Part shown: one piece after another, positions 4,240 through 62,024 of the stretch
Position numbering within the stretch: the stretch's first letter is position 1
Layout: every line of letters starts with the position of its first letter
Source: Verrucomicrobiales bacterium
Lineage (GTDB): Bacteria > Verrucomicrobiota > Verrucomicrobiia > Verrucomicrobiales > DEV007
Assembly (NCBI GenBank): GCA_012960505.1
Contig: DUBC01000033.1
Coordinates: 1-64,000 of the forward strand
Length of the DNA stretch: 64,000 bases
Direction of reading: 5' to 3'
The notes under the pieces: generated by a model
Told to the model about the DNA's origin: nothing
Seen by the model: the letters and a program-made list of their open reading frames with translations, nothing else
Databases searched by the model: none
Made by a program: the position numbers and the translations under genes

Positions 4240-4611
4240 ATGAATGAAGTTTATCAACAGATTGGTGTGGAAGGGTTGAATGCTCTTGTTTGTGCATTTT
4301 ATAAAAAGGTGAAGGGGGATGATTTGTTATCTCCAATGTATCCAAGTGATGACTGGGAGAGTGCCCAAGGGAGATTAGCCGATTTTCTTATCTATCGATG
4401 TGGTGGATCTCAAAAATACATAGAAAAACGGGGGCATCCCCGTTTGCGGATGCGTCATATGCCGTTTCATATAGGCACTGCCGAAAGGGATCGGTGGTTG
4501 AAGCTTATGGGTGAGGCGATGAAGGAAACAAAAGTTGAACCTCCAGCTTCAAAATTATTGGCAGAATTTTTTGCTCAGACAGCAGATTTCATGCGTAACG
4601 CACCGGAGTAA
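4240..4611 (+). CDS. Truncated hemoglobin, group II-like
   Basis: A 123-residue cytoplasmic protein without a signal peptide. It matches the 2/2 globin fold of group II (GlbO type): RLADFL in helix E, a GG turn at 55-56, the segment RGHPRLRMRH with proximal heme ligand His73, the PFHIG segment, then ERDRWL in helix G. Family members bind O2 or NO and act in oxygen or nitrosative-stress handling. The gene ends 10 bp before the probable GTG start of the transporter fusion, so translation may be coupled, although a functional link between the two is not evident. Confidence 0.85.
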   Translation: MNEVYQQIGVEGLNALVCAFYKKVKGDDLLSPMYPSDDWESAQGRLADFLIYRCGGSQKYIEKRGHPRLRMRHMPFHIGTAERDRWLKLMGEAMKETKVEPPASKLLAEFFAQTADFMRNAPE

Positions 4612-4621
4612 AAATTTTTTC

Positions 4622-7246
4622 GTGGCTTCAATTGATAAATTTCGGCAATATATAGGGGTGAGAATTTTTCAGTTAATTATTATATGGACTACATTTTTAG
4701 GTTCTATCGCGGTTGCTGCGGATGATCTCCTGAAATGGGAAAAGTTGCCTGAACTGCCGCCAGGTAATGGGCAAGAAGAGAACCCTGGAGTTGCTGGTCC
4801 ATTTGTAGGAATTCACAACAATGCACTAATTATTGCAGGAGGTGCCAACTTTCCAGGGAAGCCATTATGGGAGACGGACAAGGTATGGCAGGACGAAATT
4901 TATGTACTTGTCAGGGAGGAAGACTCTGAAGGGGACTCGTATACTTGGAAAGATGGCGGTAAACTTCTAAGGCCTCTGGCATATGGAGCTTCAGTTTCTA
5001 CTGATAAAGGAGTCCTTTGTATTGGTGGAGATGATGCTACAAAAGTTTATCAGGAAGTGTTTCTTCTTTCTTGGGATAACGAGAAGAATGAATTAACGCG
5101 TCAGGAATTACCCGGACTTTCTGAGCCCGTCGCCTATGGCGCTGCCACATTTGTTAATGGGATTGTTTATCTTGTCGGGGGGCAGACCGGGAAGTCGCTC
5201 AATACTGCGACTAATAAGGTCTATTCTTTCGACTTAAATAATTTTGAGAAGCAAAAGAGTACTAGTTGGAATGAGCTTCCAGAGATCCCATGGTCATCCC
5301 GTGCCTTTGTCCAAGTGGCTTCCCAACATAACGGTTATGATGATTGTGTTTATGTGATTGGAGGAAGGCGTGAGAAAGGTGACGGTGAGGATCTTTTGTC
5401 TGACGTATGGGAATACAATACACGCAGTAAAGAATGGCGACAAAGAGCAAGCTTTAAGGGGCCTCTGATGGCTGGCACTGCAATCGGATATAAGCAAAGC
5501 CATATCGTGGTGCTTGGAGGATCGCATGGCACTTATTGGGGGAAAGCTGATGATCTTAAGGATGAGCATCCTGGTTTTCTTAAGAAAACATATCTTTATC
5601 ATACCATCACAGATACCTGGATAGAATCAGGAGACAGTCCTGTAAATCATGTAACAACGGTTCCTGTCCTATGGGATGATTCGATTATTATTGCCAGTGG
5701 TGAGGTTCGTCCACGGGTCCGTTCTCCGAAATTATGGAAGGTGACGCCACAAACGAAGAGTAAAGATTTCGGAACAGTAAATTATTTGGTTCTGACTGTT
5801 TACCTGCTCCTTATGGTTTTGGTTGGTTTGTTTTTTGCCAAAAGGAACAAAGGCACTGATGATTTTTTCCGAGGAGGAAAGCGTGTGGTATGGTGGGCAG
5901 CGGGTTGCAGTATTTTTGCGACCATGCTCAGTTCACTGACATTCACCGGATTGCCCAGCAAGGCGTATGCTACTGATTGGGTTTATTTTTTGGCGAACAT
6001 GATGATTCCTGTCGTTGCTTTTGTTGCTGTTTATGTGGCTCTTCCATTTTACCGAAAAATTGATGCGACAAGTGCTTACGAATATCTTGAGAAGCGATTC
6101 AATCGTCGAGTAAGGATGCTGGGCAGTGGTTTTTTTACTTTGTTCCACATTTTCCGTATGGCAGTCGTAATGTCATTGACTGGTTTGGCTTTGGCTTCAG
6201 CAACGCCATTAACTCCTTGGCAGTCTGTGGTTCTCATGGGATTTTTGAGTATTCTTTATTGTACAATGGGAGGTATTGAAGCTGTGATTTGGACTGATAC
6301 GATACAAACCATTGTTCTGCTTGGTGGGGCCGTGATTGCTTTCTTTATGCTTATCAGCGGCGTTAATGGAGGATTCGAGGGATTTCTTTCTATTGCCGGA
6401 GAAGCCGACAAATTTCGTATTGCGAACTTCAATTGGGATATTACAAACGCTCAGGTAGCTGTTTGGGTCATTATTTTGGGTGCTTTAGCACAAAACGTTT
6501 CCGGATACACAGCAGACCAATCAGTGGTCCAGCGCTATATGACAACCCCGGATCAAAAAATGGCAGCACGTTCGATTTGGACTAATGCGGTGCTCAGTGT
6601 CATTGCCAGTGTCCTGTTCTTTGGCCTTGGATCAGCACTCTTTGCTTTCTATGCGTCCAATCCTGTTAAGCTTGACCCGACCATAAAGACTGATCAAATT
6701 TTTCCATTGTTCATTGCAAATGAAATGCCTGTTGGTCTTGCGGGTCTGATCGTCGCTGGAATTTTTGCTGCTGCCCAATCGACCGTGTCCACAAGCATGA
6801 ATTCAACCGCGACCACGCTTGTTACTGATTTTATGAAACCTATGAACATGTGCCGAGATGACCGTCAGTATCTCAAGTCCGCAAGATGGTTAACGATTAT
6901 TATGGGAATTCTTGGGACAGTCTTTGGGCTTTGGTTTCTTAATCCTGAAATTAAGTCGTTGTTTGATGAGTTCATCAAAATTGTGGGATTGATTCTCGGA
7001 ATGCTAGGAGGAATTTTTCTTCTGGGCGTCCTGACAAGAACTGCAAATGCTACCGGAGCAATTATAGGATGCTTTGGTGGAGTTGCAGTTGTTTTATGGG
7101 TTTGGAAGATGACTGATGCCCATGCTTACTTTTATCCGTTCGCTTCGGTAGGAAGTTGTTTTTTGATTGGTCTGATTAGCAGTTACTTTTTTAAAGGTAA
7201 AAGTGAAACTAGGGGGCTCACTATTCACACGATCAAAGAGAAGTAG
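4622..7246 (+). CDS. Kelch-repeat (NanM-like) domain fused to sodium:solute symporter (SSS)
   Basis: About 874 residues from GTG 4622, which lies just past the globin stop and precedes a hydrophobic signal segment (RIFQLIIIWTTFLGS). The frame also has an ATG at 4535, but that would overlap the globin by 77 bp; GTG 4658 is another option. The first ~360 residues form a six-bladed kelch propeller (VGGQTG, VIGGRR and VLGGSHG blades) like N-acetylneuraminate epimerase/mutarotase. From about residue 375 a sodium:solute symporter of about 13 membrane segments follows (TVYLLLMVLVGLFF first; sodium-site-like STVSTSMNSTATT late). In known sialic-acid systems the mutarotase and transporter are separate genes; here they are one chain, so the propeller would sit in the periplasm and feed the channel. 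The sialic acid or related acidic-sugar substrate is inferred. Confidence 0.8.
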   Translation: MASIDKFRQYIGVRIFQLIIIWTTFLGSIAVAADDLLKWEKLPELPPGNGQEENPGVAGPFVGIHNNALIIAGGANFPGKPLWETDKVWQDEIYVLVREEDSEGDSYTWKDGGKLLRPLAYGASVSTDKGVLCIGGDDATKVYQEVFLLSWDNEKNELTRQELPGLSEPVAYGAATFVNGIVYLVGGQTGKSLNTATNKVYSFDLNNFEKQKSTSWNELPEIPWSSRAFVQVASQHNGYDDCVYVIGGRREKGDGEDLLSDVWEYNTRSKEWRQRASFKGPLMAGTAIGYKQSHIVVLGGSHGTYWGKADDLKDEHPGFLKKTYLYHTITDTWIESGDSPVNHVTTVPVLWDDSIIIASGEVRPRVRSPKLWKVTPQTKSKDFGTVNYLVLTVYLLLMVLVGLFFAKRNKGTDDFFRGGKRVVWWAAGCSIFATMLSSLTFTGLPSKAYATDWVYFLANMMIPVVAFVAVYVALPFYRKIDATSAYEYLEKRFNRRVRMLGSGFFTLFHIFRMAVVMSLTGLALASATPLTPWQSVVLMGFLSILYCTMGGIEAVIWTDTIQTIVLLGGAVIAFFMLISGVNGGFEGFLSIAGEADKFRIANFNWDITNAQVAVWVIILGALAQNVSGYTADQSVVQRYMTTPDQKMAARSIWTNAVLSVIASVLFFGLGSALFAFYASNPVKLDPTIKTDQIFPLFIANEMPVGLAGLIVAGIFAAAQSTVSTSMNSTATTLVTDFMKPMNMCRDDRQYLKSARWLTIIMGILGTVFGLWFLNPEIKSLFDEFIKIVGLILGMLGGIFLLGVLTRTANATGAIIGCFGGVAVVLWVWKMTDAHAYFYPFASVGSCFLIGLISSYFFKGKSETRGLTIHTIKEK

Positions 7247-14082: not shown

Positions 14083-15633
14083 ATGAATTACCAATTGATA
14101 AAAATGAAAATATTTAAATTTAATCTTCTGATAGCGATAATTGCTTTTTTAAATGTGAATGCGGACTCTTCTGAGCGGCCGAACATCATGATTATCCTGA
14201 CAGATGACATGGGGTTTTCTGACCTGGGTTGTTTTGGTGGTGAGATTAATACACCTAACCTCGACTCGCTTGCTTCTACTGGATTGAGATTTACTGAGTT
14301 CTACAATACTGCCCGGTGCTGGCCCACTAGAGCAACTATGTTAAGTGGGAGGTACAGTAACAGGTTGACTCCTTCACAGGTTATTATTCCTCAGATCCTA
14401 AAGGAATCAGGTTACCAGACCGGTATGGTGGGGAAGTGGCACCTTGGAATGAATCCCAAGAAGGACGGACCCATTCAGAGAGGATTTGATGATTTCTATG
14501 GAACCATGACCGGGGCAGGATCTTTCTGGGACCCTTACACATTGACCCGAAACACTGAGCCGACCGAACCTGATGGTAAGGACTATTATTACACTGATAA
14601 AATTGGGACTGAGGCGGTTCGACAAATTGAGTCTTTTGCCAAATCAGAAAAACCTTTTTTCCAGTACGTGGCCTTCACTGCAGCTCATTGGCCAATGCAC
14701 GCTCCTGAGAAATCGATTCAAAAGTATATGAAAATGTATGAAAGGGGCTGGGAAAAATTACGTAACGACCGGTATCAGAGGATGCTGAAAATGGGTATCA
14801 TTGATAAGGAAAAGTGGCCGTTACCTGAGAGAGAGAGTGTGGTCAAAGATTGGGAAACTATTGATCATAAGCCTTGGAGAATTCGCAATCAAGCTATCTA
14901 TGCTGCTATGGTTGACCATATGGATCAGGCCGTTGGCAATATTGTCGATGCGCTCAAAAAAACCGATCAGTTTAAAAATACGTTAATTATTTATTTCCAT
15001 GACAATGGAGCATGTCCCGAGCACTTAGGTGGCAACGGTTGGAATACTGCTAATAATATTCTTGCCAAGGCCAAAAGAGAAGGCAAGGAAGTGGCAGTAG
15101 GGGACAAGTACGATGTGATGATGGGAGGACCGCTCACTTATGGCAGCGTTGGACATAACTGGGCCAGTGCGCAGAACACTCCAATGCGTCGCTATAAAAT
15201 GAATGTGCACAATGGAGGTGCATGTACCCCAGCGATTATGCATTGGCCGGATGGTCTCAAGACAAAGCCAGGTTCAATTACTGAACAAAGAGGCCACGTG
15301 ATAGACATGTTGGCCACTTGCATGGAACTTGCAGAGGCCAAATATCCTGAAGAATTTTCAGGAAAGAAAATTGAATCTCATGAAAGTAAGTCGCTACTCC
15401 CTGTCATTAAAGGTAAATCAGTTAGCCGGGACCACGCCTACATTTTTAATCATGCCGGTACCCATGCAGTGGTGAAGGGTGACTTTAAAATTGTCAGGGA
15501 GGGAAAGCGACCATGGGCACTCTATAATCTGGCCAAGAATAGGACAGAGACAATTAATCTTGCGTCTAAGGACCCAGAGATTGTTAGCAACTTGGAAAAG
15601 ATATGGGACGGAAGATGGGGAAAAAAGAAATAA
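14083..15633 (+). CDS. Exported sulfatase (arylsulfatase type, S1 family)
   Basis: A 516-residue protein; ATG 14083 or ATG 14104 (MKIFKFNLL) both precede a signal peptide that likely ends at NADSS. The formylglycine site is Cys79 in CWPTRATMLSG (pattern CxPxR), with metal ligands Asp41-Asp42 in LTDDMGFSD, the KWHLG motif, and FHDNG downstream. The shape TARCWPTR is common among planctomycete and verrucomicrobial arylsulfatases. It hydrolyses a sulfate ester of an unknown, probably carbohydrate, substrate after Cys maturation by an FGE enzyme that is not in this window. The next gene is convergent. Confidence 0.9.
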   Translation: MNYQLIKMKIFKFNLLIAIIAFLNVNADSSERPNIMIILTDDMGFSDLGCFGGEINTPNLDSLASTGLRFTEFYNTARCWPTRATMLSGRYSNRLTPSQVIIPQILKESGYQTGMVGKWHLGMNPKKDGPIQRGFDDFYGTMTGAGSFWDPYTLTRNTEPTEPDGKDYYYTDKIGTEAVRQIESFAKSEKPFFQYVAFTAAHWPMHAPEKSIQKYMKMYERGWEKLRNDRYQRMLKMGIIDKEKWPLPERESVVKDWETIDHKPWRIRNQAIYAAMVDHMDQAVGNIVDALKKTDQFKNTLIIYFHDNGACPEHLGGNGWNTANNILAKAKREGKEVAVGDKYDVMMGGPLTYGSVGHNWASAQNTPMRRYKMNVHNGGACTPAIMHWPDGLKTKPGSITEQRGHVIDMLATCMELAEAKYPEEFSGKKIESHESKSLLPVIKGKSVSRDHAYIFNHAGTHAVVKGDFKIVREGKRPWALYNLAKNRTETINLASKDPEIVSNLEKIWDGRWGKKK

Positions 15634-27604: not shown

Positions 27605-28471
27605 TCATATTTTAGGAATTAACGCTTCACCTACTTTTGTAGATGTTCTGAAGTAACCCAGATAGGCATCTTCCATATCAGTGACAAGCCAACTAGCTTT
27701 TGAAAAGGTGTTTTGTTCTCTGGTTCCTCCTGGGGCTATTTCTCCATAAAGCTTAAGTCTGCCATTATATTCCACCCAATAGATCTTCACCTTTTGCTTC
27801 ATTTGGTTGTGAAATATGATGGTTGTATTATCACCTGATATAGACTTTGGAGGTATTTCTCCAGTTGATGCAATCCACTTCAAATCTTCAGAAGGTCTTG
27901 GCGGTGGTTTTTTTTGAGCAACGATCTTATTTAAATCAACTCCTCGGATGATATTTAATTTGGATAATTCTTTTTCTAGTTTCTGAATGCCATCGTCAGT
28001 GACTCCGGTTTGCCAGACGAATAACTGTTTGAGATTCTTGAGATCTTTTAGTTTTTCTAGGCCCTTATCAGTTATCTTTGTTGAGTAAAGGTTCAGGTAC
28101 TCAAGTTGTTGAAGGCCTGTCAGGTAATCGATGCATGCATCATCTACTTGGGTCCTTTCCAAATGCAGTCGTCTCAAGTTTTTCATCCCCTCGATGTGCT
28201 TAATTCCGGCACTTGTTATTTTCGTATCCCTCAAATTCAATAATCTGACATCTTGTAAGTCTTGAGCCGGTTCGAGTCCGTCGTCTTGTAGATCTCTTCC
28301 TCTCAGATGAAACTCAATTCTCCAGCCACCACTATCTGCAGAGGAAATAATCCCACCACTTTCCTTGAGTTTATTGATCGCAGTAGACTCCTTGCCCTGA
28401 GCCCAAATAATGGATGAAAAAATAAATAAAAAAAGCACCCCAAATGGATTAATATTTGGACAACGGCACAT
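27605..28471 (-). CDS. Exported leucine-rich repeat protein with C-terminal VHL-like beta domain
   Basis: A 288-residue protein. A signal peptide spans about residues 8-25 (FGVLFLFIFSSIIWAQ). Residues about 60-165 hold four to five RNI-type leucine-rich repeats (LRRLHLERTQVDD, LEYLNLYSTKITDKG, LKQLFVWQTGVTDDG), the type common in Planctomycetota and Verrucomicrobiota. After a Pro-rich linker, residues about 205-270 read like the von Hippel-Lindau beta domain: TTIIFHNQ, VKIYWVEYNG, GEIAPGGTREQNTF and DMEDAYLGYF. In animals this fold recognises hydroxyproline; its bacterial ligand is unknown. It sits between the acetylesterase and the DUF1080-TIM gene on one strand, with gaps under 70 bp, so co-transcription is possible. 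Confidence 0.75.
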   Translation of the reverse strand: MCRCPNINPFGVLFLFIFSSIIWAQGKESTAINKLKESGGIISSADSGGWRIEFHLRGRDLQDDGLEPAQDLQDVRLLNLRDTKITSAGIKHIEGMKNLRRLHLERTQVDDACIDYLTGLQQLEYLNLYSTKITDKGLEKLKDLKNLKQLFVWQTGVTDDGIQKLEKELSKLNIIRGVDLNKIVAQKKPPPRPSEDLKWIASTGEIPPKSISGDNTTIIFHNQMKQKVKIYWVEYNGRLKLYGEIAPGGTREQNTFSKASWLVTDMEDAYLGYFRTSTKVGEALIPKI

Positions 28472-28506: not shown

Positions 28507-29928
28507 TTAGGGCATCCAAATTTTATTCCATGCATTTATGGATCGCTTCAGGTTTTCCCTTGAATCTCCCTTAATGGCATAGCATTGCAGACCGACCGGA
28601 CCATTAAATCCAACACCTTTTAAAAGATTCATTAGTTTGGACTGATCGAAGTTACCCCGGTCAAGAGTCTGTATTAGTTGCTGCCATGAATGGCTACCCT
28701 CTTCAGCGCCACTGATACTTACCTGCCATAAATATGGCGCGGCATTCTCAATGGCTTCTTTCATATTGCTCTTTGGTTCGACCTGCAGGAAATGACAAAG
28801 ATTGAACATGACGCCGACATTTTCCTGGTTTGCCTTTTTGGCAATCCTGACGGCATCACCGATCCGGTCAATATAGAAACCGGCATGAGGATAAAGCACT
28901 ACTTTGAGACCAGATTCCTTTGCTTGACCTGCAATTTCTCTGACAAAATTAACAGCCTCTTCGTCGGTGTTGTTGTTTTTATCTCCTTGAACGTAAAGTT
29001 CAATGACTGTGTCAGTTCCCTTCAATTCCCGGATCAGTTCTGAGATTGCAGGGTCGTAGTTGTGACCATCCTTTTTTAATTTCCCCCCAACATAAAAACT
29101 GAAGACTTTCAGTCCGTTTTTTTTGAAAGTCGACAACCGTTCTTTGATAGGTTCTTTGGATTTTAAATATGCGGAACCAATACCATCGTAACCTAATTCT
29201 TTGAGTGTCTTGGCCTTTTTATTTGCCGTATTAAAATGGACTCCATTATGAAAAGCGAAGAGGAGAGGCCTTGTTTTTACCTTTTCCATTATGGTCAGTT
29301 TTATGTTCTTAAAGTAAACGCTATCTCCATGATTTTGCATTCCAATCCTTCCAATTGTCCGGTGAAGGCCGGGAATTCTTTTCCCATGAACTTTGGCGAG
29401 ATCATCTAGCTTAGTGTCTATGATCTGTTGGCCATTAACCCAGACCATGCACTTTGGACCGACGCAGGTTATTCGAATACTTTGCCACTCACCAGCTGCC
29501 TTGGTAGCGCGGTGGCTGGGTGCTAGTGCCGCATATATTGCACCTGTGAATTGATTTGGTTTAAGATTTTTCCATTTTTCACCCGCATCATCTAGCAATT
29601 GAATCTCGATCCCATCGACATAAGGAATTCCTTCTTTTGGAGCTCTGATAAAAATTCCGCTATTACCGTTCTCTGGAAGATTAAAATCCATACTAAGATC
29701 AAAGTCAGAGAATTCCTGTTTAGTCGCAATCCACTGAGCTCCTTTACCGCCCGTGCACGAAAGTGTTCCGTCTTTCACTTCCCAGTTCTTTGATGCGTCT
29801 CCACCTATCCCTTCCCAGCCATCTAGGTCCTTCCCGTTGAAAAGATCGATAATTCCGGCTTCATTTTTTGCACTAGATAGGGTCAGTGATAGCAGGGTTA
29901 AAAGAAGAACAGTTAAGATGTTAGACAT
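28507..29928 (-). CDS. DUF1080 (3-keto-disaccharide hydrolase-like) fused to TIM-barrel sugar isomerase/epimerase-like domain
   Basis: A 473-residue exported protein (signal to about residue 20, LSSAKNE). Residues about 23-213 are DUF1080/PF06439: IDLFNGKDLDGWEG, GNSGIFIRAP and VDGIEIQLLDD, GRIGMQNHGD. This beta-sandwich family includes 3-keto-disaccharide hydrolases. Residues about 215-473 form a xylose-isomerase-like TIM barrel. The usual metal carboxylates are altered: LYPHAGF where a Glu is expected, NLCHFL in place of IDxxH, and GLQCYA in place of IELEY. Compare the conventional barrel at 37507-38328. The fusion suggests two consecutive steps on one extracytoplasmic chain, probably on an oxidised glycoside; this is inference. 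Confidence 0.82.
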   Translation of the reverse strand: MSNILTVLLLTLLSLTLSSAKNEAGIIDLFNGKDLDGWEGIGGDASKNWEVKDGTLSCTGGKGAQWIATKQEFSDFDLSMDFNLPENGNSGIFIRAPKEGIPYVDGIEIQLLDDAGEKWKNLKPNQFTGAIYAALAPSHRATKAAGEWQSIRITCVGPKCMVWVNGQQIIDTKLDDLAKVHGKRIPGLHRTIGRIGMQNHGDSVYFKNIKLTIMEKVKTRPLLFAFHNGVHFNTANKKAKTLKELGYDGIGSAYLKSKEPIKERLSTFKKNGLKVFSFYVGGKLKKDGHNYDPAISELIRELKGTDTVIELYVQGDKNNNTDEEAVNFVREIAGQAKESGLKVVLYPHAGFYIDRIGDAVRIAKKANQENVGVMFNLCHFLQVEPKSNMKEAIENAAPYLWQVSISGAEEGSHSWQQLIQTLDRGNFDQSKLMNLLKGVGFNGPVGLQCYAIKGDSRENLKRSINAWNKIWMP

Positions 29929-30052: not shown

Positions 30053-32632
30053 ATGTTCTTAATGATAAAGGTGATTATTAATGTATGCCCTCTGTTCATT
30101 TTTTCTTTTTGGATAGGTTCTTTGTTAGGGGCACAATCTCTTGGTCCTGAAGAGAATCACCCTCGCCCTTCATACTCCCAGTACTCTGAGAAAGAGATTG
30201 CAGCTCAAGTTGCCGCGGTCCGTAAGAGTAGCCCTCAGATGCATCGTGGAGGTTGGCAATGGGACCGGCTCCTTGAAAGGTACATAGACAGCGCAAGGAA
30301 AGACCCTAATGAATTAAAGATTCTTCGTGCTTATCTGTTGAGTATTCTTGATCGTTATCAGGAAGCAAAGGATAAGGGAGAGGGGATAACATTTACCCTA
30401 TTTTATAATCATAGATCATGGGGAAGTGGTGGAAGGATGAGGATCTACGAGGAACTGATGAAGCAAAATGTGCTTACTGAAGATGAGAAGCGGAATTTCA
30501 GAGCGCTGGTCCTTCACAGTCTCCGAGCTGATTTTAAGGACTATGCTGCGCTGGAAAGAGGAGTCAATAATAGGCCTTATGGGATCAATGGTGGGCCCGC
30601 TATTGCTGTTAGAATGTTTCCTCAGCATCCAAACTCTGTCCGTCATAAGGCATGGCTTGATGCTTTGTGGAGAGAATTAATCGAGTATGGAGACATGACC
30701 GAGACCAATTATTATCCTTATGGTCCGCTTTACCTTCAAGGTCTCATTGACATGGCTTATGGCATGAACAAATTTCAGACTGATAGAAAATTTCTATACT
30801 TTCATTTTCGAAGGTATCTCTATTATGTGCATGGTGGTGGGGTAAGGGGTAACCCGAATTCTAGTGCGAATATTATTCAGGGACAACGTGCAAAAATTTA
30901 TACTGATCCCTGGAATGCTGAATATTATGGCGGCGCTGAGCAGATCAATGATGGGCACGTCTGGTATCGTATGGCAAAAGAATTCAAAGATCCCGAGTTT
31001 CTCTGGGCATCAGAGCAGGTTTGCCTTGGTGGTCGTCCTCCGCAAGGTCATCAGGCTCCTAAAGAGTACCTCGAGGCATATAAGAAAAGATACTTTTGGT
31101 TCATTGAGAGAGGAATCGAACCGAAGGTCCCTCAAGGAGGGTCAGGGATAAGTTATTACAGCCCTCTAAAACATAAGATCCCTGAACGTCTGTATTTGTG
31201 CTCTGGCAGGGAGAGTGGGAACCCCTTCGTGTCCTTTTTCATCTATGACAGGAATAATAATTACATGCACTACTGCGATGATTCTGACGGTAAGCTTTAT
31301 GAATATTGTGTGGACGGTGCAAAATTTCTTCATACGTCCGGCAAGTACACGAGCGGTCGAGCCGGTACCGGTGAAACTGCTTATGATGTGCTGTCTGTAT
31401 TACCGCCTGATATGAAATTTCCCTTGAAGGAGGGATTTGGTATGGATGAACCGACTGGAGAAGCTTGGAAGATGGCTTCGATGTCCATAAAACTGACCCT
31501 AAATTCGAGAGAAGGACCTGACTCAAAGAATTGGAAGTTTGATAATAAAGTAGGATTGTTTCGTCGGACCGATCAGCCCGAACTTGGATACTCTCATGGA
31601 AACATGGATGGTTACTGGCAATTGAATAACGACTATAATCTTAATTCTTTGCGTATTGGTCCGTTCCCATCAGGTACCAAAATTCAAAATTTGAGAATTG
31701 CGGGGCCGAAGGGTGAAAAAATTATAGAGTCCTTCAATTCTATTTCTGATGATCTAGTCATTGAGTTAGTTCAGGGTGAGGGCCGTGTTCAACTCACTGG
31801 AAAGATGCGGGATATCGCCTGCAAGATAGTGAAAGATGGGAGAAGGCCTGGAAAATGTATTGAGGTGGGAAATGTTGGGAAGGATAATGGTATCGCTTTT
31901 GTTTTCAATGACCTTAACGAAAATTTTGACGGGCAGAACGAATTCACCAGAATGTCATATGATTTCAAAGGTAAATCCGAAGGAGGCATCACCCCCAACG
32001 TGAGAACGAATCCTCGCTATTTTACTCCCTTATGGCACCGAGGAGCTATTCTCGTACGCGAAGATCTTCGAGCCGAGAATGAGGGTGAAGACTCTTTCGG
32101 TAAATTCACTATGCGCAATTATTATGGAGCCAACAGCAAATGGTCACGGCAGACTGTTTTGACTGCGGAGGGGTATTTGATCGTTCGTGATCATTATGTG
32201 CCTTGCTCTGACGTGGATGGATACGTTGCATCGCCCTGCTGGTCCATTGCTGTGACGGATCAGAAATCAAAGGATGGAACTCATTGGTTTGATGCTCCTG
32301 CGCGGGACCACGCGTGGTGGCAGAAAAAGAAAAAGAGAGTCATTTTGTATCTTCATCCCCAGAAGGGGCAAGAAATTGGACAGGTCAAGACTCGAACATC
32401 TCAAGACATTGGAGGTGCCAATGTGATGAATACTTTTTCCAAGGCAACTCTCAGATCAGGTGAACCCTTGGTTTGGCTTAGTGTTTTCCGCCCTTACGAT
32501 GAGGGTGAAGACAAAAATAAATTGGCCAGTCAGATTAAGACTCTCGTTGATAATGAAGGGAACGTTTCAGCAAAGATAGGTAATTTGAGAGTTTCCATAG
32601 CCCATGACGGGTCATGGCAGGTCAAAAGATGA
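30053..32632 (+). CDS. Large exported protein, heparinase II/III- or alginate-lyase-like architecture (candidate polysaccharide lyase)
   Basis: An 859-residue protein; ATG 30053 or 30062 both give a signal peptide (core VCPLFIFSFWIGSLLG). The N-terminal ~430 residues are helix-rich with repeated aromatic/His segments (YNHRSWGSGGRMRIYEEL, NYYPYGPLYLQGL, EYYGGAEQINDGHVWYRM), as in an (alpha/alpha) toroid. Residues about 480-850 are beta-rich and include FTPLWHRGAILVRED and MRNYYGANSKWSRQ, GYLIVRDHY, in the style of the heparinase II/III C-terminal sheet. I could not match it to a named lyase family. It stands alone on the plus strand inside a minus-strand cluster and ends 8 bp from the stop of the convergent dehydrogenase gene. 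Confidence 0.6.
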   Translation: MFLMIKVIINVCPLFIFSFWIGSLLGAQSLGPEENHPRPSYSQYSEKEIAAQVAAVRKSSPQMHRGGWQWDRLLERYIDSARKDPNELKILRAYLLSILDRYQEAKDKGEGITFTLFYNHRSWGSGGRMRIYEELMKQNVLTEDEKRNFRALVLHSLRADFKDYAALERGVNNRPYGINGGPAIAVRMFPQHPNSVRHKAWLDALWRELIEYGDMTETNYYPYGPLYLQGLIDMAYGMNKFQTDRKFLYFHFRRYLYYVHGGGVRGNPNSSANIIQGQRAKIYTDPWNAEYYGGAEQINDGHVWYRMAKEFKDPEFLWASEQVCLGGRPPQGHQAPKEYLEAYKKRYFWFIERGIEPKVPQGGSGISYYSPLKHKIPERLYLCSGRESGNPFVSFFIYDRNNNYMHYCDDSDGKLYEYCVDGAKFLHTSGKYTSGRAGTGETAYDVLSVLPPDMKFPLKEGFGMDEPTGEAWKMASMSIKLTLNSREGPDSKNWKFDNKVGLFRRTDQPELGYSHGNMDGYWQLNNDYNLNSLRIGPFPSGTKIQNLRIAGPKGEKIIESFNSISDDLVIELVQGEGRVQLTGKMRDIACKIVKDGRRPGKCIEVGNVGKDNGIAFVFNDLNENFDGQNEFTRMSYDFKGKSEGGITPNVRTNPRYFTPLWHRGAILVREDLRAENEGEDSFGKFTMRNYYGANSKWSRQTVLTAEGYLIVRDHYVPCSDVDGYVASPCWSIAVTDQKSKDGTHWFDAPARDHAWWQKKKKRVILYLHPQKGQEIGQVKTRTSQDIGGANVMNTFSKATLRSGEPLVWLSVFRPYDEGEDKNKLASQIKTLVDNEGNVSAKIGNLRVSIAHDGSWQVKR

Positions 32633-32640
32633 GGTTCTTT

Positions 32641-34344
32641 TTATTTAAAAGTTGCCTCGCTGAAATCTAATTTGTAGATGGTTCCTTTGTCGTATCCTAT
32701 TGCGTAGAGGTTGCCATTACGGTCTTTACCAAAGGCAACGATCCGGTCCGGGCATTGGCCGATTTCTCTTATAGTTTCTAGTTTCCGGTTATTTTGAGTT
32801 AATCCCCATATCTTTTTTGATTGATAATCTGCACAGATATAAACCCCTTCAAAGGAACTCTTTTCATTGGTCTTGGATCGGATCACATATCCCCCAGTGA
32901 TGGAAACGCCATGCGATCGACGGAAAGAGATTATTGGGGCAATGAAATTACTATTCTCTTTCCTGTATTGAGTTGAAAACAGTTCAAAACCCTCATAAAC
33001 GTTCCACCCGTGATTTTCTCCTGAACGAACAATCGTGACTTCCTCGAAACGGTTCTGTCCAACATCACCTACCCACAAATCTCCATTAGTTGAGTCAAAA
33101 CTGAACCTCCATGGTTGACGCAGTCCGTATGCATATATCTCACGAAGGACTTTTTTATTGGGGTGATTATTAAAGGGATTCTCTTTCGGAATTGAATAGG
33201 ATTTTCCAACTCCTTTGTTGTTCACATCGATCCGCAGTATCTTTCCTGAAAATGATTCCAGATCCTGAGCATGGCCTAGCGGATCTTCTTGTGGACCTCC
33301 ATCACCCATTCCAATATATAAATAACCGTCCGGGCCAAACTCTATACCACCTCCATGGTGGAACTGAGTGGCAACTTCAAACTCGAGGATTTTTCTGGTA
33401 GGATTTTCTGAGTCTCTTAGAAAATCTTCAGAGGCAATCCTTTCACCGATGGCCATGCCTCTATAGTTTTCTGCCTTTGTCTCATACATTAAATAATATT
33501 TTCGGTTTTCAGAAAATTCAGGGTGAAAAGCAAAGCCAAGGAGCCCTTCATCATTTGTCACATAGACTTCATTCGGTATGGCAACGAATGGAATTTTCTT
33601 TTCGATACCGTCTTTATTCTTTTTTAATAGGGAAACAGAGGCTCTGCTCTTTTCAACGATGACAAATGCATCGTCAATTGTGGGGTGCTGACCGAACCAG
33701 ATCGGTTTCTCAAGATTAATATTTTTCCCAAAGAAAGGCAGAAGTTTAATTTGTTTGGAAAGTGCTTTTATCTTTTCAGGTGTGCCGTTTTTATTTAGCC
33801 CCTCTGACTGGGGTTGCTTTAGGCTTTCTAAATAAGCGATCAGGTCTGTAAATTCCTGTAATTCAAGTTTAGCGTGTAGCCCGACAGGCATTAAAGAAAC
33901 AGGATTTGTGTACTGTTTCTTAATGTTGGATTTGAGGATAGTAGTAATTTTGTTCCCAAGGTTGGAAAGGGTAATTTCCTTTTTGGTCGTTGATTTCAGG
34001 ATTCCAGTGAACGCTTTCCGATCTTTCGTTTCAATGACAGTAGTATCATAACCTGTCATAATTGAGGCAGAAGGTTCAATGACGGACTTAATAAGGTCAG
34101 CACGCGAGAATTTATCACCCGCTGCAAACAGGTCAGGGCCTACACTCTTCGAACTACCGTCGACAGTATGACACTGAGAACATAAGGCCCTATCACCTTG
34201 AAAGATCTTACGTCCAAGTTCCAGATTACCTTCTTTTCTGGACGCGCTTTCTTGATACTTTTCTATTTTTGTTTTTTCAGCACTGATGGTGAAACTACTG
34301 GGAATCAAAAAGATTCCCAGCAGAATGAGACGGGGAAAGTGCAT
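32641..34344 (-). CDS. Cytochrome c domain fused to PQQ-dependent sugar dehydrogenase-like propeller
   Basis: A 567-residue exported protein (signal core LILLGIFLIPSSF). Residues about 40-175 are a heme-binding domain of the PSCyt3 type with CSQCH (Cys55, Cys58, His59) and a likely Met ligand in SLMPVG. From about 210 a six-bladed glucose/sorbosone dehydrogenase propeller follows: FHPEFSENRKYY, EFGPDGYLYIGMGDGG, KILRIDVN, YGLRQPWRFSFD, WVGDVGQNRFEEV. In soluble aldose dehydrogenases PQQ and calcium bind this fold, and the heme next to it can accept the electrons directly. The sugar is unknown. It converges on the candidate lyase gene, and its start is 65 bp downstream of the stop of the LamG giant on the same strand. 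Confidence 0.85.
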   Translation of the reverse strand: MHFPRLILLGIFLIPSSFTISAEKTKIEKYQESASRKEGNLELGRKIFQGDRALCSQCHTVDGSSKSVGPDLFAAGDKFSRADLIKSVIEPSASIMTGYDTTVIETKDRKAFTGILKSTTKKEITLSNLGNKITTILKSNIKKQYTNPVSLMPVGLHAKLELQEFTDLIAYLESLKQPQSEGLNKNGTPEKIKALSKQIKLLPFFGKNINLEKPIWFGQHPTIDDAFVIVEKSRASVSLLKKNKDGIEKKIPFVAIPNEVYVTNDEGLLGFAFHPEFSENRKYYLMYETKAENYRGMAIGERIASEDFLRDSENPTRKILEFEVATQFHHGGGIEFGPDGYLYIGMGDGGPQEDPLGHAQDLESFSGKILRIDVNNKGVGKSYSIPKENPFNNHPNKKVLREIYAYGLRQPWRFSFDSTNGDLWVGDVGQNRFEEVTIVRSGENHGWNVYEGFELFSTQYRKENSNFIAPIISFRRSHGVSITGGYVIRSKTNEKSSFEGVYICADYQSKKIWGLTQNNRKLETIREIGQCPDRIVAFGKDRNGNLYAIGYDKGTIYKLDFSEATFK

Positions 34345-43392: not shown

Positions 43393-45255
43393 ATGATTAA
43401 GAAGATACTTTTGTTTGGTTTTATAATTCCACTGTGTTCATGTCTTAATGTATGTGCCAAGCCGAACATACTTTGGATTTCTGCAGAGGACATTGGACCT
43501 CATTTTGGTTGTTATGGTGATCCGCATGCGATTACTCCCAACATTGATAAATTGTCATCCGAGGGAACCCGTTTTACTAACGCTTATACGACTGCGGGTG
43601 TTTGTGCTCCTTGTCGCAGTGGAATCATAACTGGCATGTATCAGAACAGTATTGGCACCCATCATATGAGGTGCAATGCCGTCCTCCCGTCCTGGCTCAA
43701 ACCTTTTCCAATTCTTCTTAGGGGGTCTGGATATTACTGCACAAATAACTCAAAGACGGATTATCAGTTTTCAAGACCATCGACTAGAGAAATCTGGGAC
43801 CAGAGCGGTTCAAAAGCTCATTGGAAGAATCGAAAGGAAGGGCAACCTTTTTTTGCAGTATTTAATTATACTGGATGTCACGAGAGTGGAATCGCTTCCG
43901 AAGGTAAGTACAAGGCTGTTACGAGAAACCTAAAACCTGAACAGAGGCAGGATCCGTCCAAGTTAGAGACATTGCCTCCGTATTATCCGGACACTTCCGT
44001 GGTCCGTGAGGACTGGAAAAGAAACTATGAACTGATTACAGCAATGGATTCTTGGGCAGGATCTCTTATCAAAGAAATTAAAGATGCTGGGCTTTACGAG
44101 GAAACAATCATATTTTTTTGGGCTGACCATGGTGTGGGATTGCCTCGTGCAAAGCGTTGGCTTTATGGTTCTGGAACACATATTCCTTTGATCGTTCGTG
44201 TTCCGGGTAAGGAGGGAGGACGAGTCGATACGCAATTGGTAAGCTCAGTTGATCTGGGACCTACGGTATTAAACCTAGCTGGGATTGAAGTTCCTAACAA
44301 ATTGCAAGGCAGAGCATTTCTTGGTCAGAAATTATCAGCTCCTCGCCGTTTTGTTTTTGGTGCCAGAGATAGAATGGATGAAAGATACGATATTATTCGT
44401 TCTATTTTTGATGGGCGTTATCGATACATTCGGAACTTTGAACCTTTGAAGCCCTACTATCAGTACATGAATACGCCAGAAAAAGGAGCCACGATGCGTG
44501 AGATAAGGAGAGCCGAGGAGGAGGGATCCCTGACTGAAACAGGCAAGATTTTTTCAACTAGCAAAAAACCTGTCGAAGAACTTTATGATTTTAAGAATGA
44601 TCCACATGAAATCCGCAATTTATCGGGTGATCCTGAGCACTTAGCGATCTTAAAGAAAATGCGTGTTCATTTGGCACAATGGCAATCTGAAATAGGTGAC
44701 ATTGGGCTCATTCCTGAGGCGGAAATCGAAATTAGAGAGAAGAAGTCCGGTTCTAGATTTGAAATTATGAATGGAGAATTATCTAATAAGGATCAAGTCC
44801 AGCGGTTGGTATCAGTTGCTACAAAAGCATCAGAAGGGCCCTCGGCTCTTGGAGAACTGATAAATGCCATTAATGATGATGATCCAGTCATACGTTATTG
44901 GTCAGTGACTGGTATCGGTAATATCGGAGAGGCGGCTAGGGGAGAAGCGTTAAAATTATCGATGAAGGCGATGAAGGATAAATCGCCTAGTGTACGAATC
45001 GCTGCTGCTCGTGCAGTGGCCCGCCTGGGTGATGCGGATGCAGCACTTGAAGTTTTAAGAGAAGAGCTAAAATCTGAGCATCAGTGGGGAAGACTTGCGT
45101 CGGTGATCGTCATTGACGAGATGGAGGAATCGGGCCGAAAAATGGTCAAGGATTTGAAGGAGGTGATAAGTACTAGGCAACCTAATAAATATATTCTTAG
45201 AGTTGCTAACCGAGCACTCAATGATTTGCTCGGGACCGACAACAAGGTCCCTTAA
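43393..45255 (+). CDS. Exported sulfatase (N-sulfoglucosamine sulfohydrolase-like) with C-terminal HEAT repeats
   Basis: A 620-residue protein with signal peptide (core ILLFGFIIPLCSC, cleavage near CAKPN). The formylglycine site is Cys71 in CAPCRSGIITG, so the position normally Ser or Thr is Cys. Metal motifs SAEDIGPHFGCYG and FWADHGVGLPRAKR are of the heparan-N-sulfatase (SGSH) type, as is GTHHMRC. Residues about 470-615 hold HEAT repeats (DDDPVIRYWSVTGIGNIG, SPSVRIAAARAVARLG), likely a protein-interaction scaffold. Its partner at 45299 has the same sulfatase and HEAT layout, 43 bp downstream. Confidence 0.88.
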   Translation: MIKKILLFGFIIPLCSCLNVCAKPNILWISAEDIGPHFGCYGDPHAITPNIDKLSSEGTRFTNAYTTAGVCAPCRSGIITGMYQNSIGTHHMRCNAVLPSWLKPFPILLRGSGYYCTNNSKTDYQFSRPSTREIWDQSGSKAHWKNRKEGQPFFAVFNYTGCHESGIASEGKYKAVTRNLKPEQRQDPSKLETLPPYYPDTSVVREDWKRNYELITAMDSWAGSLIKEIKDAGLYEETIIFFWADHGVGLPRAKRWLYGSGTHIPLIVRVPGKEGGRVDTQLVSSVDLGPTVLNLAGIEVPNKLQGRAFLGQKLSAPRRFVFGARDRMDERYDIIRSIFDGRYRYIRNFEPLKPYYQYMNTPEKGATMREIRRAEEEGSLTETGKIFSTSKKPVEELYDFKNDPHEIRNLSGDPEHLAILKKMRVHLAQWQSEIGDIGLIPEAEIEIREKKSGSRFEIMNGELSNKDQVQRLVSVATKASEGPSALGELINAINDDDPVIRYWSVTGIGNIGEAARGEALKLSMKAMKDKSPSVRIAAARAVARLGDADAALEVLREELKSEHQWGRLASVIVIDEMEESGRKMVKDLKEVISTRQPNKYILRVANRALNDLLGTDNKVP

Positions 45256-45298: not shown

Positions 45299-47848
45299 AT
45301 GATTTATTTAAGATTCTTATGTGTGTTCACCTTCTTTCTGATGATGGTGTTCAGGGCCGATGCAGAGTGGATTGAGCTTTTTGATGGTAAGACTACGGAG
45401 GGTTGGAAACCGCGATCTGAGGTCATTTCTTTTGATGCTAAGGGAGGTGAGCTTCATTTACTCTCGAAGACAAACTGTTGGGTCACTACTGAACGTCAGA
45501 TGAGTGATTTTGAGGCAGAGATTGAAGTTCTTATGCCTAAAGAAGAGGGTTTTAATTCCGGATTAGCCTTCCGCTGCATTGGCAATCAGGGTCGTCCGAA
45601 AGGTTACCAGTGCGAGATTGATCAGCAAAAGCCAGCCGGAGTTTATGGGATCGGTAATGGTGGTTGGATTTATCCTGGAAAGGGTCAGGGCAAAGAGTTC
45701 GCTGATAAGATTCGTGGTAATCTTAAGAAAGATGATTGGAACCATTTTAGAGTGAGGGCTGTCGGAGATAGGATCCAAACATGGTTGAATGGAAAGCCCG
45801 TATCAGACATTAAGCATGGGAAAATATTAAAAGGCTATTTTGGTATTCAGCATCATGGGAAGGGAGGAACCGTTCGTTTCAGAAATATTAGGGCACGTGA
45901 AATCTCTAATAAAAAAGTGACGCAAGAAATTCAGAAGAGACCCAATATCTTGTGGATCACGGCTGAGGATATGAGTCCGACACTTGGTTGTTATGGAGAT
46001 AAATATGCAATCACTCCGAACATTGATAAGTTGGCCAGTTCCTCAACAAAATACTCCAATGCTTTCGCGGCTTCTCCTGTCTGCTCTCCTTCAAGGTCGG
46101 TCCTGATTACTGGAATGCATAACGTCTCTACAGGCACTCATCAGATGAGGTCCGGATTTCCTTTGCCGACAGGAGTCAAGGGCTTTCCAGCCCATATGAG
46201 GGAATCAGGCTATTTTACAACTAATAACGTCAAAACAGATTATAACAGCAGTGATGCTCCACGCCTGGTCAAAGAATCATGGGATGAGTCAAGTCCTAAG
46301 GCTCACTGGCGCAATTCCAAGCGCGGGCAAGGGCAACCGTTCTTCTCTGTTTTTAATATTATGACCAGTCACCAGTCCCGTTCAATGGTCTGGCCTTATC
46401 CTGTTTTCAAAAAACATGTTCAATCCAAATTGTCGGCTACTGAAATTCATGATCCTAAGAAGGCTCCGGTCCCTGACTATTATCCTGACACGCCTCTCAT
46501 AAGAAAAACGATTAGCCGGTATTATGATTGTGTCACGGTCATGGATCAGCGGGTCGGTGAAATTATGAGTCAATTGCGCGAAGACGGATTAGCAGATAAT
46601 ACTATTGTTTTTTTCTTTTCTGACCATGGTTCAGGAATGCCTCGTCATAAGAGGTTATTGCATGATAGTGGGATGAAAGTTGCCATGCTGATACATGTTC
46701 CTGAGAAATGGAAGCATCTGCGTCCAACTGCTCCCGGTTCCGCGACGGATCGATTGGTGAGTTTTGTTGATTTTCCACCATCAGTTCTCGGATTAGTTGG
46801 TCTCAAATCACCAAAATATATGCAAGGGATTCCTTTTATAGGCGTTGGCTCTACCCAGAAAAGAAAATTTGTTTTTGGTAATAGAGACAGGGTCGATGAA
46901 GTATTTGATTGTTCCAGATCAGTACGAAACAAGAGATGGTTATACATACGTAATTTTCATCCCCATCTTTCTTGGAACCAGCCGTCAGTATTCTCCGATC
47001 TTGGTGAGATACGTCATGAAATTTCCCGAGTTTTCCGGGAGGATCCTGATTCTTCTAGTGTTGCCCAGAGGCACTATGCCGGCCCCACAAGGGCAACCGA
47101 AGAGTTTTATGATTGTGATGCTGATCCGGATAATACACGTAACTTGATTTCTGGAAAGTTGTCAGATGAGGCTAGCAAAGCATTACAGAGATTACGGTTA
47201 AGCTTAGTTGAACACCGCAATGCAGTAGGAGACCTGGGCGCTTTGCCTGAAAGTGAGATGCGCCGTTGGGTAAAGAATGAAGGCAGCCCAATGAGAGACA
47301 TTGTTATGGGCAAGACGGACCATTCGCCCGACCTCGAGAGGGCATGGTCAGCTGCTGATAAGGTAGGCAAGTCTGATTCCAAGGAACTTTTGAAGCTTCT
47401 TAAAAAAGGAAATGTTAATGAGAGGTATTGGGCTGCAGTTTCTCTTAGAAATGGGCACTTTGATGAAAAGAGCATCCAGCAAAGCGCATTTGAATGGATT
47501 CAGGACGTTGCACCTTCTGTTCGAATTGAGATTGCCGGCTGGTTGGCATTTTTTCCTGAAAAAAGAGAAGCTTCTCTTAATCGATTAGTGAAAGATCTTG
47601 AGCACCCTGACTGGGCAGTCGCTTTGCAAGCGTGTCGTGCAATTGAATTATTAGGCCCAAAGGCAAGGCCGGTCCTAGGAATAATGAAGAAACTTTACGC
47701 GAAGACCCGTCATGAACCTGGAGATAATAATTTTTTCATAGCTTTCTCAAGTGGTGCATTTCTTGATGAGCTTGGGGAAAAAACAGAACCTTGGGATTTT
47801 TCACCAGGGGCCGGGAGTTTCATGCCTGCAAAGAAGAAATCTAATTGA
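45299..47848 (+). CDS. DUF1080 - sulfatase - HEAT triple fusion (exported)
   Basis: An 849-residue protein with signal peptide (core FLCVFTFFLMMVF, cleavage near ADAEW). Residues about 23-202 are DUF1080 (IELFDGKTTEGWKP, FNSGLAFRCIG, DWNHFRVRAVGDRIQTWLNG). Residues about 215-640 are an SGSH-like sulfatase with formylglycine Cys262 in CSPSRSVLITG, TAEDMSPTLGCYG and FFSDHGSGMPRHKR. Residues about 700-815 are HEAT repeats (ERYWAAVSLRNG, WAVALQACRAIELLG). The combination suggests desulfation and cleavage of a keto-glycoside on one chain. DUF1080 in tandem with a sulfatase is known in these phyla, but I do not recall this exact triple order. Confidence 0.87.
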   Translation: MIYLRFLCVFTFFLMMVFRADAEWIELFDGKTTEGWKPRSEVISFDAKGGELHLLSKTNCWVTTERQMSDFEAEIEVLMPKEEGFNSGLAFRCIGNQGRPKGYQCEIDQQKPAGVYGIGNGGWIYPGKGQGKEFADKIRGNLKKDDWNHFRVRAVGDRIQTWLNGKPVSDIKHGKILKGYFGIQHHGKGGTVRFRNIRAREISNKKVTQEIQKRPNILWITAEDMSPTLGCYGDKYAITPNIDKLASSSTKYSNAFAASPVCSPSRSVLITGMHNVSTGTHQMRSGFPLPTGVKGFPAHMRESGYFTTNNVKTDYNSSDAPRLVKESWDESSPKAHWRNSKRGQGQPFFSVFNIMTSHQSRSMVWPYPVFKKHVQSKLSATEIHDPKKAPVPDYYPDTPLIRKTISRYYDCVTVMDQRVGEIMSQLREDGLADNTIVFFFSDHGSGMPRHKRLLHDSGMKVAMLIHVPEKWKHLRPTAPGSATDRLVSFVDFPPSVLGLVGLKSPKYMQGIPFIGVGSTQKRKFVFGNRDRVDEVFDCSRSVRNKRWLYIRNFHPHLSWNQPSVFSDLGEIRHEISRVFREDPDSSSVAQRHYAGPTRATEEFYDCDADPDNTRNLISGKLSDEASKALQRLRLSLVEHRNAVGDLGALPESEMRRWVKNEGSPMRDIVMGKTDHSPDLERAWSAADKVGKSDSKELLKLLKKGNVNERYWAAVSLRNGHFDEKSIQQSAFEWIQDVAPSVRIEIAGWLAFFPEKREASLNRLVKDLEHPDWAVALQACRAIELLGPKARPVLGIMKKLYAKTRHEPGDNNFFIAFSSGAFLDELGEKTEPWDFSPGAGSFMPAKKKSN

Positions 47849-60881: not shown

Positions 60882-62024
60882 TCAGTCTTTGCCTCGATGT
60901 TTTTCAACCCAGGCAGGGTACTCGACTTTCAGAAGATTCTCTGGCCAGCGGCCTCCAATCCATAAGTGGCCGATGCGCTTGGTATGGCTCAGTTCCGAGA
61001 GTTTGTATTTTACGACTCCCTTCTCGATGAACATGGGCCGATCAGTTCCAATCTCGTAGTAGCGTGCCCAGATCGGCGAGGCCTCCGGATCCACAACGAC
61101 TTTCCGGTCCACGCCTCCGGGGAGCGATCTGTCCTCGAAGTTAAGGACGCGGACCCCAGTGATCTTAACTTCTTTGAACCATGTTAACGCGCCTACGATC
61201 GCGGCAATGGTTTCGGGCGAAGGGCTATCGATCGACATCAGGTAGCGGACTACGCCGACGCTCTCGGCTCCGGACAGGGACGGATTCTCGGAGATGCGGC
61301 CCTGAGCCGGCTCTAGAGTCCGCTGGTCATGCTGCTGGCACCAGGCCATCTTCTTTCCGTTCACAACGATCTGGCATTTGAGAATACATTCTCGGCCCCT
61401 CGTCACCGCGGCCTGGATTTTCTTCTGCAGTTTGTCGTCGGCGAGGTCATAAGGCGGTCGGTGGTGCACGACATCGTCGAGGATCGCAATGGCTCCGATC
61501 ATGGCACCATCGTTGAAGGTGATCCGGCTCGAGTATCCTGGCCTGAGCGGATAGAACTGCGGCCAACCACCGCTGGGATACTGTGCTTTCAGCAAGTAGT
61601 GAACACCCTTCAGGAACCCGTCCTTGTACTTCCGCTGACCCGTCGCAGCGTGGACTTTGGCGAGAAAACGTATTTCAGACCAAGTCGCGTCATTGTCCAA
61701 GGTACACGGATACTTGCGCTGCTTCAGTGACTCCTTGTGTTTCTCCCGGTCCTCTTCGCTACGGACATTGATCGCAGCATTTCCGGAGGGATGGATACTT
61801 CCGTCGTTTTTGTACCAACCGCCTAAATCCGACTGAAAGTAGAGGACGTTGTCCCCGATGCGCTTTGCTTCGGAAGTCTTGTACCAGTCTCCTTTCTGGT
61901 TCGCGCAATCACGCCATGAGATGGCACTAGCTGACATGGTAAGGAGCCAGAGGCACGTGACGAGCCCAAGAAAGAGCATTTGTTGTGATGGGCTGAGCCT
62001 CTCTATTGAGATATTTGGTCTCAT
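60882..62024 (-). CDS. PL10-type pectate lyase (PelA), exported
   Basis: A 380-residue protein; either ATG 62024 or the internal ATG at 61979 (MLFLGLVTCLW) leads into a signal peptide that ends near SASAIS. The PL10 domain covers nearly all the rest: QSDLGGWYKNDG, ATWSEIRFLAKV, YPSGGWPQFYPLR, FNDGAM, WCQQHDQRTLEP, and PLWAR-like SPIWARYYEIG. The Asp in NDGAM and the Arg cluster near ARYY are likely catalytic. It cleaves polygalacturonate by calcium-assisted beta-elimination. Codons are visibly G+C-rich versus both neighbours. It is divergent from the following sulfatase. Confidence 0.85.
   Translation of the reverse strand: MRPNISIERLSPSQQMLFLGLVTCLWLLTMSASAISWRDCANQKGDWYKTSEAKRIGDNVLYFQSDLGGWYKNDGSIHPSGNAAINVRSEEDREKHKESLKQRKYPCTLDNDATWSEIRFLAKVHAATGQRKYKDGFLKGVHYLLKAQYPSGGWPQFYPLRPGYSSRITFNDGAMIGAIAILDDVVHHRPPYDLADDKLQKKIQAAVTRGRECILKCQIVVNGKKMAWCQQHDQRTLEPAQGRISENPSLSGAESVGVVRYLMSIDSPSPETIAAIVGALTWFKEVKITGVRVLNFEDRSLPGGVDRKVVVDPEASPIWARYYEIGTDRPMFIEKGVVKYKLSELSHTKRIGHLWIGGRWPENLLKVEYPAWVEKHRGKD

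Follow-up and report, generated by a model that had tools for sequence, protein, structure and literature searches.

A probable heparinase II/III-like polysaccharide lyase from a family absent from Pfam, NCBIfam and the PDB

Complex sulfated glycans from the sea are broken down by Verrucomicrobiota and planctomycetes, which use large sets of sulfatases to do so, yet many of the backbone-cutting enzymes of marine glycan degraders are missed by annotation. A gene for an 859-residue protein in a 64,000-nucleotide stretch of a Verrucomicrobiales genome, referred to here as the window, raises the question of whether it encodes such an enzyme. The initial annotation proposed a polysaccharide lyase (PL) with a helical toroid-like N-half and a beta-sandwich C-half that could be assigned to no named PL family. 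The analysis described below makes it likely that the product is a polysaccharide lyase, secreted or periplasmic, that falls within the heparinase II/III-like superfamily and belongs to a family absent from Pfam, NCBIfam and the PDB. The features on which this assignment is based are listed in Table 1.

Table 1. Features of the candidate lyase gene and of its two flanking genes, in positions of the window; residue numbers refer to the 859-residue protein
Feature	Position	Strand	Basis or remark
Candidate lyase gene, 859 aa	30053..32632	+	ATG-to-stop ORF; start possibly 30062 (M4)
Probable Sec signal peptide, residues 1-~28	30053..30136	+	Hydrophobic stretch MIKVIINVCPLFIFSFWIGSLLGA; predicted helix 5-28, low pLDDT
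Predicted (alpha/alpha) toroid-type N-terminal domain, residues ~35-355	30155..31117	+	AF2; PL12/35/39/17 structural matches from ~35
Predicted C-terminal antiparallel beta domain, first part, residues ~360-460	31130..31432	+	AF2 strands 365-450
All-beta insertion of ~200 residues, ~461-670, splitting the beta domain	31433..32062	+	Missing from the 700-aa paralogue subfamily
Predicted beta domain, second part, residues 673-859	32069..32629	+	AF2 strands 673-858
N172-N173, predicted carboxylate neutraliser	30566..30571	+	hhalign: N173 on the GNH Asn of PL12 heparinase III
Y223, predicted Broensted acid/base	30719..30721	+	hhalign: on the Tyr of the ExxxxYH (ELxPxYH) motif of heparinase III
H406, predicted catalytic His of the beta domain	31268..31270	+	Sole His in loop; H406-Y432 spacing 26
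Y432, predicted second active-site Tyr	31346..31348	+	Invariant in A1; spacing to H406
PF06439 (3-keto-disaccharide hydrolase) + AP_endonuc_2 TIM barrel fusion	28507..29928	-	Divergent neighbour
Cytochrome c + glucose/sorbosone dehydrogenase (GSDH)	32641..34344	-	Convergent neighbour

The open reading frame is real rather than a product of chance, because it has full-length homologues at 56-93% identity and because substitutions are in excess at third codon positions. Differences at codon positions 1, 2 and 3 number 43, 29 and 133 relative to the homologue L005 (133 of 205 at the third position) and 68, 37 and 280 relative to L007 (280 of 385), which shows that the protein is under selection. 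The closest relatives, at 88-93% identity, come from other genomes within the genus, and those at 56-74% are found in marine Verrucomicrobiales, in Roseibacillus/Akkermansiaceae MAGs and in one planctomycete MAG. Four orthologues (L007, L008, L009 and L023) begin at the second methionine, M4, so that the true start of the gene may lie there. The N-terminus, hydrophobic from about residue 5 to 25, is probably a signal peptide and gives the protein a secreted appearance.

Sequence searches did not connect the protein to any named family. The whole protein has no match in Pfam at E values up to 1, nor do the toroid, the insert and the second part of the beta domain when searched separately at E values up to 10, and NCBIfam likewise contains no match. 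Neither of the two heparinase families of Pfam, PF16889 (Hepar_II_III_N) and PF07940 (Hepar_II_III_C), is matched by the N and C domains separately at E values up to 10; proteins of these families are lacking throughout the genome of the window, and PF16889 is widespread in the phylum (82 of 241 genomes). Two alignments were used for further comparison, A1, with 25 sequences of close relatives, and A2, a 24-sequence alignment that includes distant relatives. Among PDB sequences, phmmer with the protein and hmmsearch with the A1 profile gave no match at E values up to 10; hmmsearch with A2 returned acetolactate decarboxylase and STAT-4 (E 0.03-0.14), which were taken as chance matches. These searches thus detect no sequence similarity to the characterised members of PL12, PL15, PL17, PL21, PL33, PL35, PL39 and PL40 represented among PDB sequences, and no match to a non-lyase family in Pfam, NCBIfam or the PDB sequences. 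A search of literature titles and abstracts, covering Roseibacillus lyases and new PL families, found no description of the family. The earlier statement that the protein has no named PL family therefore holds against these three resources: the sequence family is probably not represented in them, and the type of enzyme is itself known.

The predicted structure provides the connection. An AlphaFold2 (AF2) model built from A2 (pLDDT 83.8, pTM 0.86) places helices at residues 46-352 and strands at 365-858; it replaced a model from the single sequence, which was useless (pLDDT 34.7). All of the top 25 Foldseek matches in the PDB belong to the uronate lyase/epimerase superfamily, with E values down to 7e-9, and the leading ones, at E 7e-9 to 6e-4, are PL35, PL12, PL17, DS-epi1, PL39, PL21, PL33 and PL40. 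Structural alignment by VIA gives a Z of 22.1 for PL12 (5jmf; 486 residues aligned, rmsd 5.8) and of 18.6 for PL35 (8khv; 467 aligned, rmsd 4.1), followed by PL39 (18.4), PL17 (17.2), PL15 (16.2), DS-epi1 (16.0), PL33 (15.3), PL40 (14.7), PL21 (14.1) and PL8 (about 12), at sequence identities of 5-12% across the alignments. Foldseek and VIA disagree in their ranking of PL35 and PL12, and for this reason no nearest PL family was selected on the basis of Z. The length of these alignments and their gaps fit the presence of an extra segment within the beta domain. The model and the PDB matches thus bear out the two-part architecture originally proposed, and a fold composed of a toroid and an antiparallel beta domain can be predicted with good confidence. 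With whole-protein matches to lyases of PL12, PL35, PL39, PL17, PL15, PL33, PL40 and PL21, plus DS-epi1, and with neither a different fold nor a non-lyase family match in evidence, the polysaccharide lyase reading is supported as a prediction.

Profile comparison leads to the same superfamily. By hhalign, A2 aligns at 86% with six Hepar_II_III proteins of the same bacterial family, one of which, L064, has a clear heparinase III match in the PDB (E 2e-23), and at 96.9% probability (E 1.9e-10, 238 columns) with a set of 32 such proteins; both reversed-profile controls of the latter comparison scored 0.1%. The close relatives alone (A1) do not reach the heparinases (2.8%). At the level of sequence profiles, these comparisons establish homology to the heparinase II/III-like superfamily, and the protein is one more branch of a fold that already contains several lyase families.

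Four residues can be proposed as the catalytic apparatus. Heparinase III uses Asn240 and Tyr294 in catalysis (PMC12088678), and these two residues were assigned to the GNH and ELxPxYH motifs by counting along the alignment of L064 with heparinase III. Their predicted counterparts are N173, present in all 25 A1 sequences, and Y223, which is Tyr in 24 of the 25 rows (X in the remaining one) and is replaced by His in two distant relatives, L044 and L045. The counterpart of the heparinase HxHxD loop, NNNYMHYCDDSDG, contains a single His, H406, that is retained in 17/17 long members; the paralogues described below also have a single His in this loop (DEHLD). Cys408 takes the place of the second His in HxH, the register of H406 is ambiguous by about two residues (it falls on different His residues of HxH in hhalign and in MAFFT), and residues 405-408 have pLDDT values below 50 in the AF2 model. 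Y432 is not conserved in most distant relatives, and all four residues are kept in long homologues down to 56% identity. The spacing of 26 between His and Tyr recurs in BtPL33 (H444/Y470; PMC11848413), in GAGase II of PL35 (H401/Y427; PMC12088678) and in Uly1040 of PL40 (H485/Y511; PMC12915356), and also in PL12, as counted by eye on the HepC line of the alignment. An apparatus of Asn, Tyr, His and Tyr is common to PL33, PL35 and PL40 (PMC11848413, PMC12088678, PMC12915356), and we infer the roles of N173, Y223, H406 and Y432 from these correspondences.

Similar comparisons can be extended to the individual families. The PL12 heparinase III enzymes (BT4657, 5jmf/5jmd; Pedobacter HepC, 4mmh) share the toroid and antiparallel beta domain and give the highest Z, and in the profile comparison N173 and Y223 fall on their catalytic Asn and Tyr; however, identity is about 10%, with no match by phmmer or hmmsearch, the spacing from Asn to Tyr is 50 in the 859-residue protein and 54 in PL12, and the beta insert of about 200 residues is an addition. 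The PL35 glycosaminoglycan (GAG) lyases (GAGase II, 8khv; GAGase VII, 8khw), which have the best Foldseek E value and the rmsd of 4.1 over 467 residues, share with the present protein both the paired Asn (Asn191-Asn192 in PL35) and the His-Tyr spacing, but show no sequence match and, at about 580 residues, are too short to contain the insert. The PL40 ulvan lyase Uly1040 (9vtk) has the same fold, with 523 residues aligned and a large beta domain of 413 residues, and the same His-Tyr spacing, whereas its neutraliser pair is Asn-Trp and its identity is 9%. The alginate lyases of PL17, PL39 and PL15, together with PL33, PL21 heparinase II and human DS-epi1, adopt the same two-domain fold (Z 14-18) at 8-12% identity by VIA and have no match at the sequence level.

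By analogy, the protein probably works like the PL12 and PL35 lyases. An acidic polysaccharide would be bound in the cleft that separates toroid and beta domain, where the uronic acid at subsite +1 would have its C6 carboxylate neutralised by N172 and N173, and Y223, together with H406 of the beta domain, would remove the C5 proton and protonate the glycosidic oxygen. The resulting beta-elimination would leave the new non-reducing end as a 4,5-unsaturated uronide, and the insert would aid in binding or positioning the glycan. The neutraliser pair may bear on the substrate. It is Asn-Asn in PL35, with His at the first position in the alginate-active GAGase III and in several alginate lyases (PMC12088678); His-Asn is also found in the distant members L047 and L048. 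Position 172 is occupied by Asn, a feature shared with GAG-active PL35, and not by the His that stands next to the catalytic Asn in alginate-active members; our guess is therefore that the substrate is a marine glycan containing D-GlcA or L-IdoA, perhaps sulfated, rather than alginate, although the pair is only a hint in this direction.

The insert distinguishes the protein from a subfamily of about 700 residues, whose members align as far as residue 458 and resume at about 674, lacking residues ~460-670. One such paralogue, of 707 residues, is encoded on contig C11 (63.2-65.3 kb) of the window's own genome; its identity is about 40-45% across residues ~15-458 and 35% across ~675-858. Distant members of the family (L038 and L044-L048), at 17-25% identity, occur in the same bacterial family, more widely in its class and in other parts of the phylum, with several copies in one genome (G209). 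Because the segment of about 200 residues (with an 'IDNIRLVGPKG'-like stretch) is also found in distant members, the simpler reading of the alignments is that the insert is old and was lost in the 700-residue subfamily rather than gained recently. At L053:7872-11347 in the window's genome (G000), the C11 paralogue ORF overlaps an upstream sulfatase ORF, and similar neighbours are present in L062 and L063; paralogue and sulfatase ORFs also overlap in G041 and are adjacent in G042, the sulfatase in the latter two genomes having been recognised by its similarity to a sulfatase of the window. Since the two genes directly adjoin in several genomes, the link to sulfatases was kept as evidence for the paralogue.

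The surroundings of the 859-residue gene are less informative. It had been placed among sulfatases and a dehydrogenase, which is loosely true: the GSDH gene is indeed adjacent, in a position conserved only in close relatives of the window, but the nearest sulfatases lie 14.4 kb upstream (14083-15633) and 10.8 kb downstream (43393-45255), and their proximity was rejected as evidence because the 4.0-Mb genome contains 87 PF00884 sulfatase matches. A PF06439 relative lies near the lyase gene in 18 of 19 informative loci, which derive from about three lineages only (L010 is the exception; L005 is too short). In Roseibacillus, the PF06439 part alone forms a separate, convergent gene beside the lyase gene, and in the planctomycete MAG the relative is a 645-residue protein. 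Proteins with PF06439 include the 3-ketotrehalose hydrolase BT2157, a proposed 3'-ketolactose hydrolase and the endo-xanthanase/lichenase THTE_1561 (PMC9007349). Because the genome has 39 PF06439 matches, this neighbour carries limited weight, and its co-occurrence with the lyase gene is suggestive only. One KDPG aldolase is encoded in the genome, which is 94% complete and has no match to GH88/GH105 (PF07470).

The fold and residues invoked above would serve equally for a uronate C5-epimerase of the DS-epi1 type, in which reprotonation at C5 replaces elimination. DS-epi1 is matched at a Foldseek E of 7e-7, its Z lies within the lyase range, so that it fits as well as most lyases do, and its apparatus is common to both kinds of enzyme, a point stressed for PL33 (PMC11848413). 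Nevertheless, every other top-ranked solved relative is a lyase, and the setting, with its many sulfatases, esterases and PF06439 genes, is catabolic; an epimerase is therefore very improbable. The departure from HxH at C408, the His in place of Y223 in L044 and L045 and the poorly modelled 405-408 loop, all of which count against a lyase, might instead indicate a weak or inactive enzyme that serves as a glycan-binding protein, with the insert as its binding part. We consider this improbable, since N173, Y223, H406 and Y432 are fully retained down to 56% identity and would be needless for a mere binder.

It is likewise conceivable, if quite improbable, that the protein acts together with its PF06439 neighbour and that their substrate is not a polymer but an oligosaccharide or an oxidised (3-keto) uronide. 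The recurrence of that neighbour, the 3-keto hydrolases among its characterised relatives and the lack of GH88 would all suit such a role, but with so many PF06439 genes in the genome a neighbour of this type is not rare, the loci represent few lineages, and in the literature consulted no member of the fold uses 3-keto substrates. As to the polysaccharide lyase itself, GH88/GH105 is the usual enzyme for unsaturated uronyl products, and its absence counts against this assignment; an exolytic lyase would not need GH88, and the genome's PL10-type pectate lyase faces the same difficulty. The adjacency of paralogue and sulfatase in three genomes (G000, G041 and G042) and the KDPG aldolase count in favour of a lyase.

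A lyase family missed by sequence searches, with N173, Y223, H406 and Y432 as clear catalytic candidates, offers a directly testable target, and the family as a whole can seed a profile with which relatives still lacking a family name could be annotated. A wider scenario, which we regard as possible but doubtful, is that of a new lyase family spread across Verrucomicrobiota and one planctomycete, carrying within its catalytic beta domain a glycan-binding insert that was lost in the sulfatase-linked subfamily; such an enzyme would open a marine sulfated uronic-acid glycan without GH88 and feed a PF06439 partner of 3-keto-glycoside type.

Several other genes were observed in passing. The PL10-type pectic acid lyase (PF09492, E 5e-91) is encoded at 60882-62024 (-), beside sulfatases, in this genome without PF07470. 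At 45299-47848 (+), a single 849-residue protein fuses PF06439, a sulfatase and HEAT-type repeats, and at 4535-7246 (+) a Kelch beta-propeller resembling N-acetylneuraminate epimerase is fused to a sodium:solute symporter; Kelch-symporter-like proteins are also encoded near L046 and L047, two of the distant relatives of the lyase. In one Roseibacillus MAG, the gene upstream of the lyase orthologue encodes a fusion of a glucuronoyl-esterase-like and an FGE-sulfatase-type domain (L012:4736-6631), and genes related to it occupy this upstream region in several other loci. A gene at 27605-28471 (-), kept beside the lyase gene in close relatives, encodes 288 residues in which leucine-rich repeats precede a VHL beta domain (PF01847), which takes its name from a eukaryotic protein; the match, at E 3.5e-7, passes the curated cut-off.
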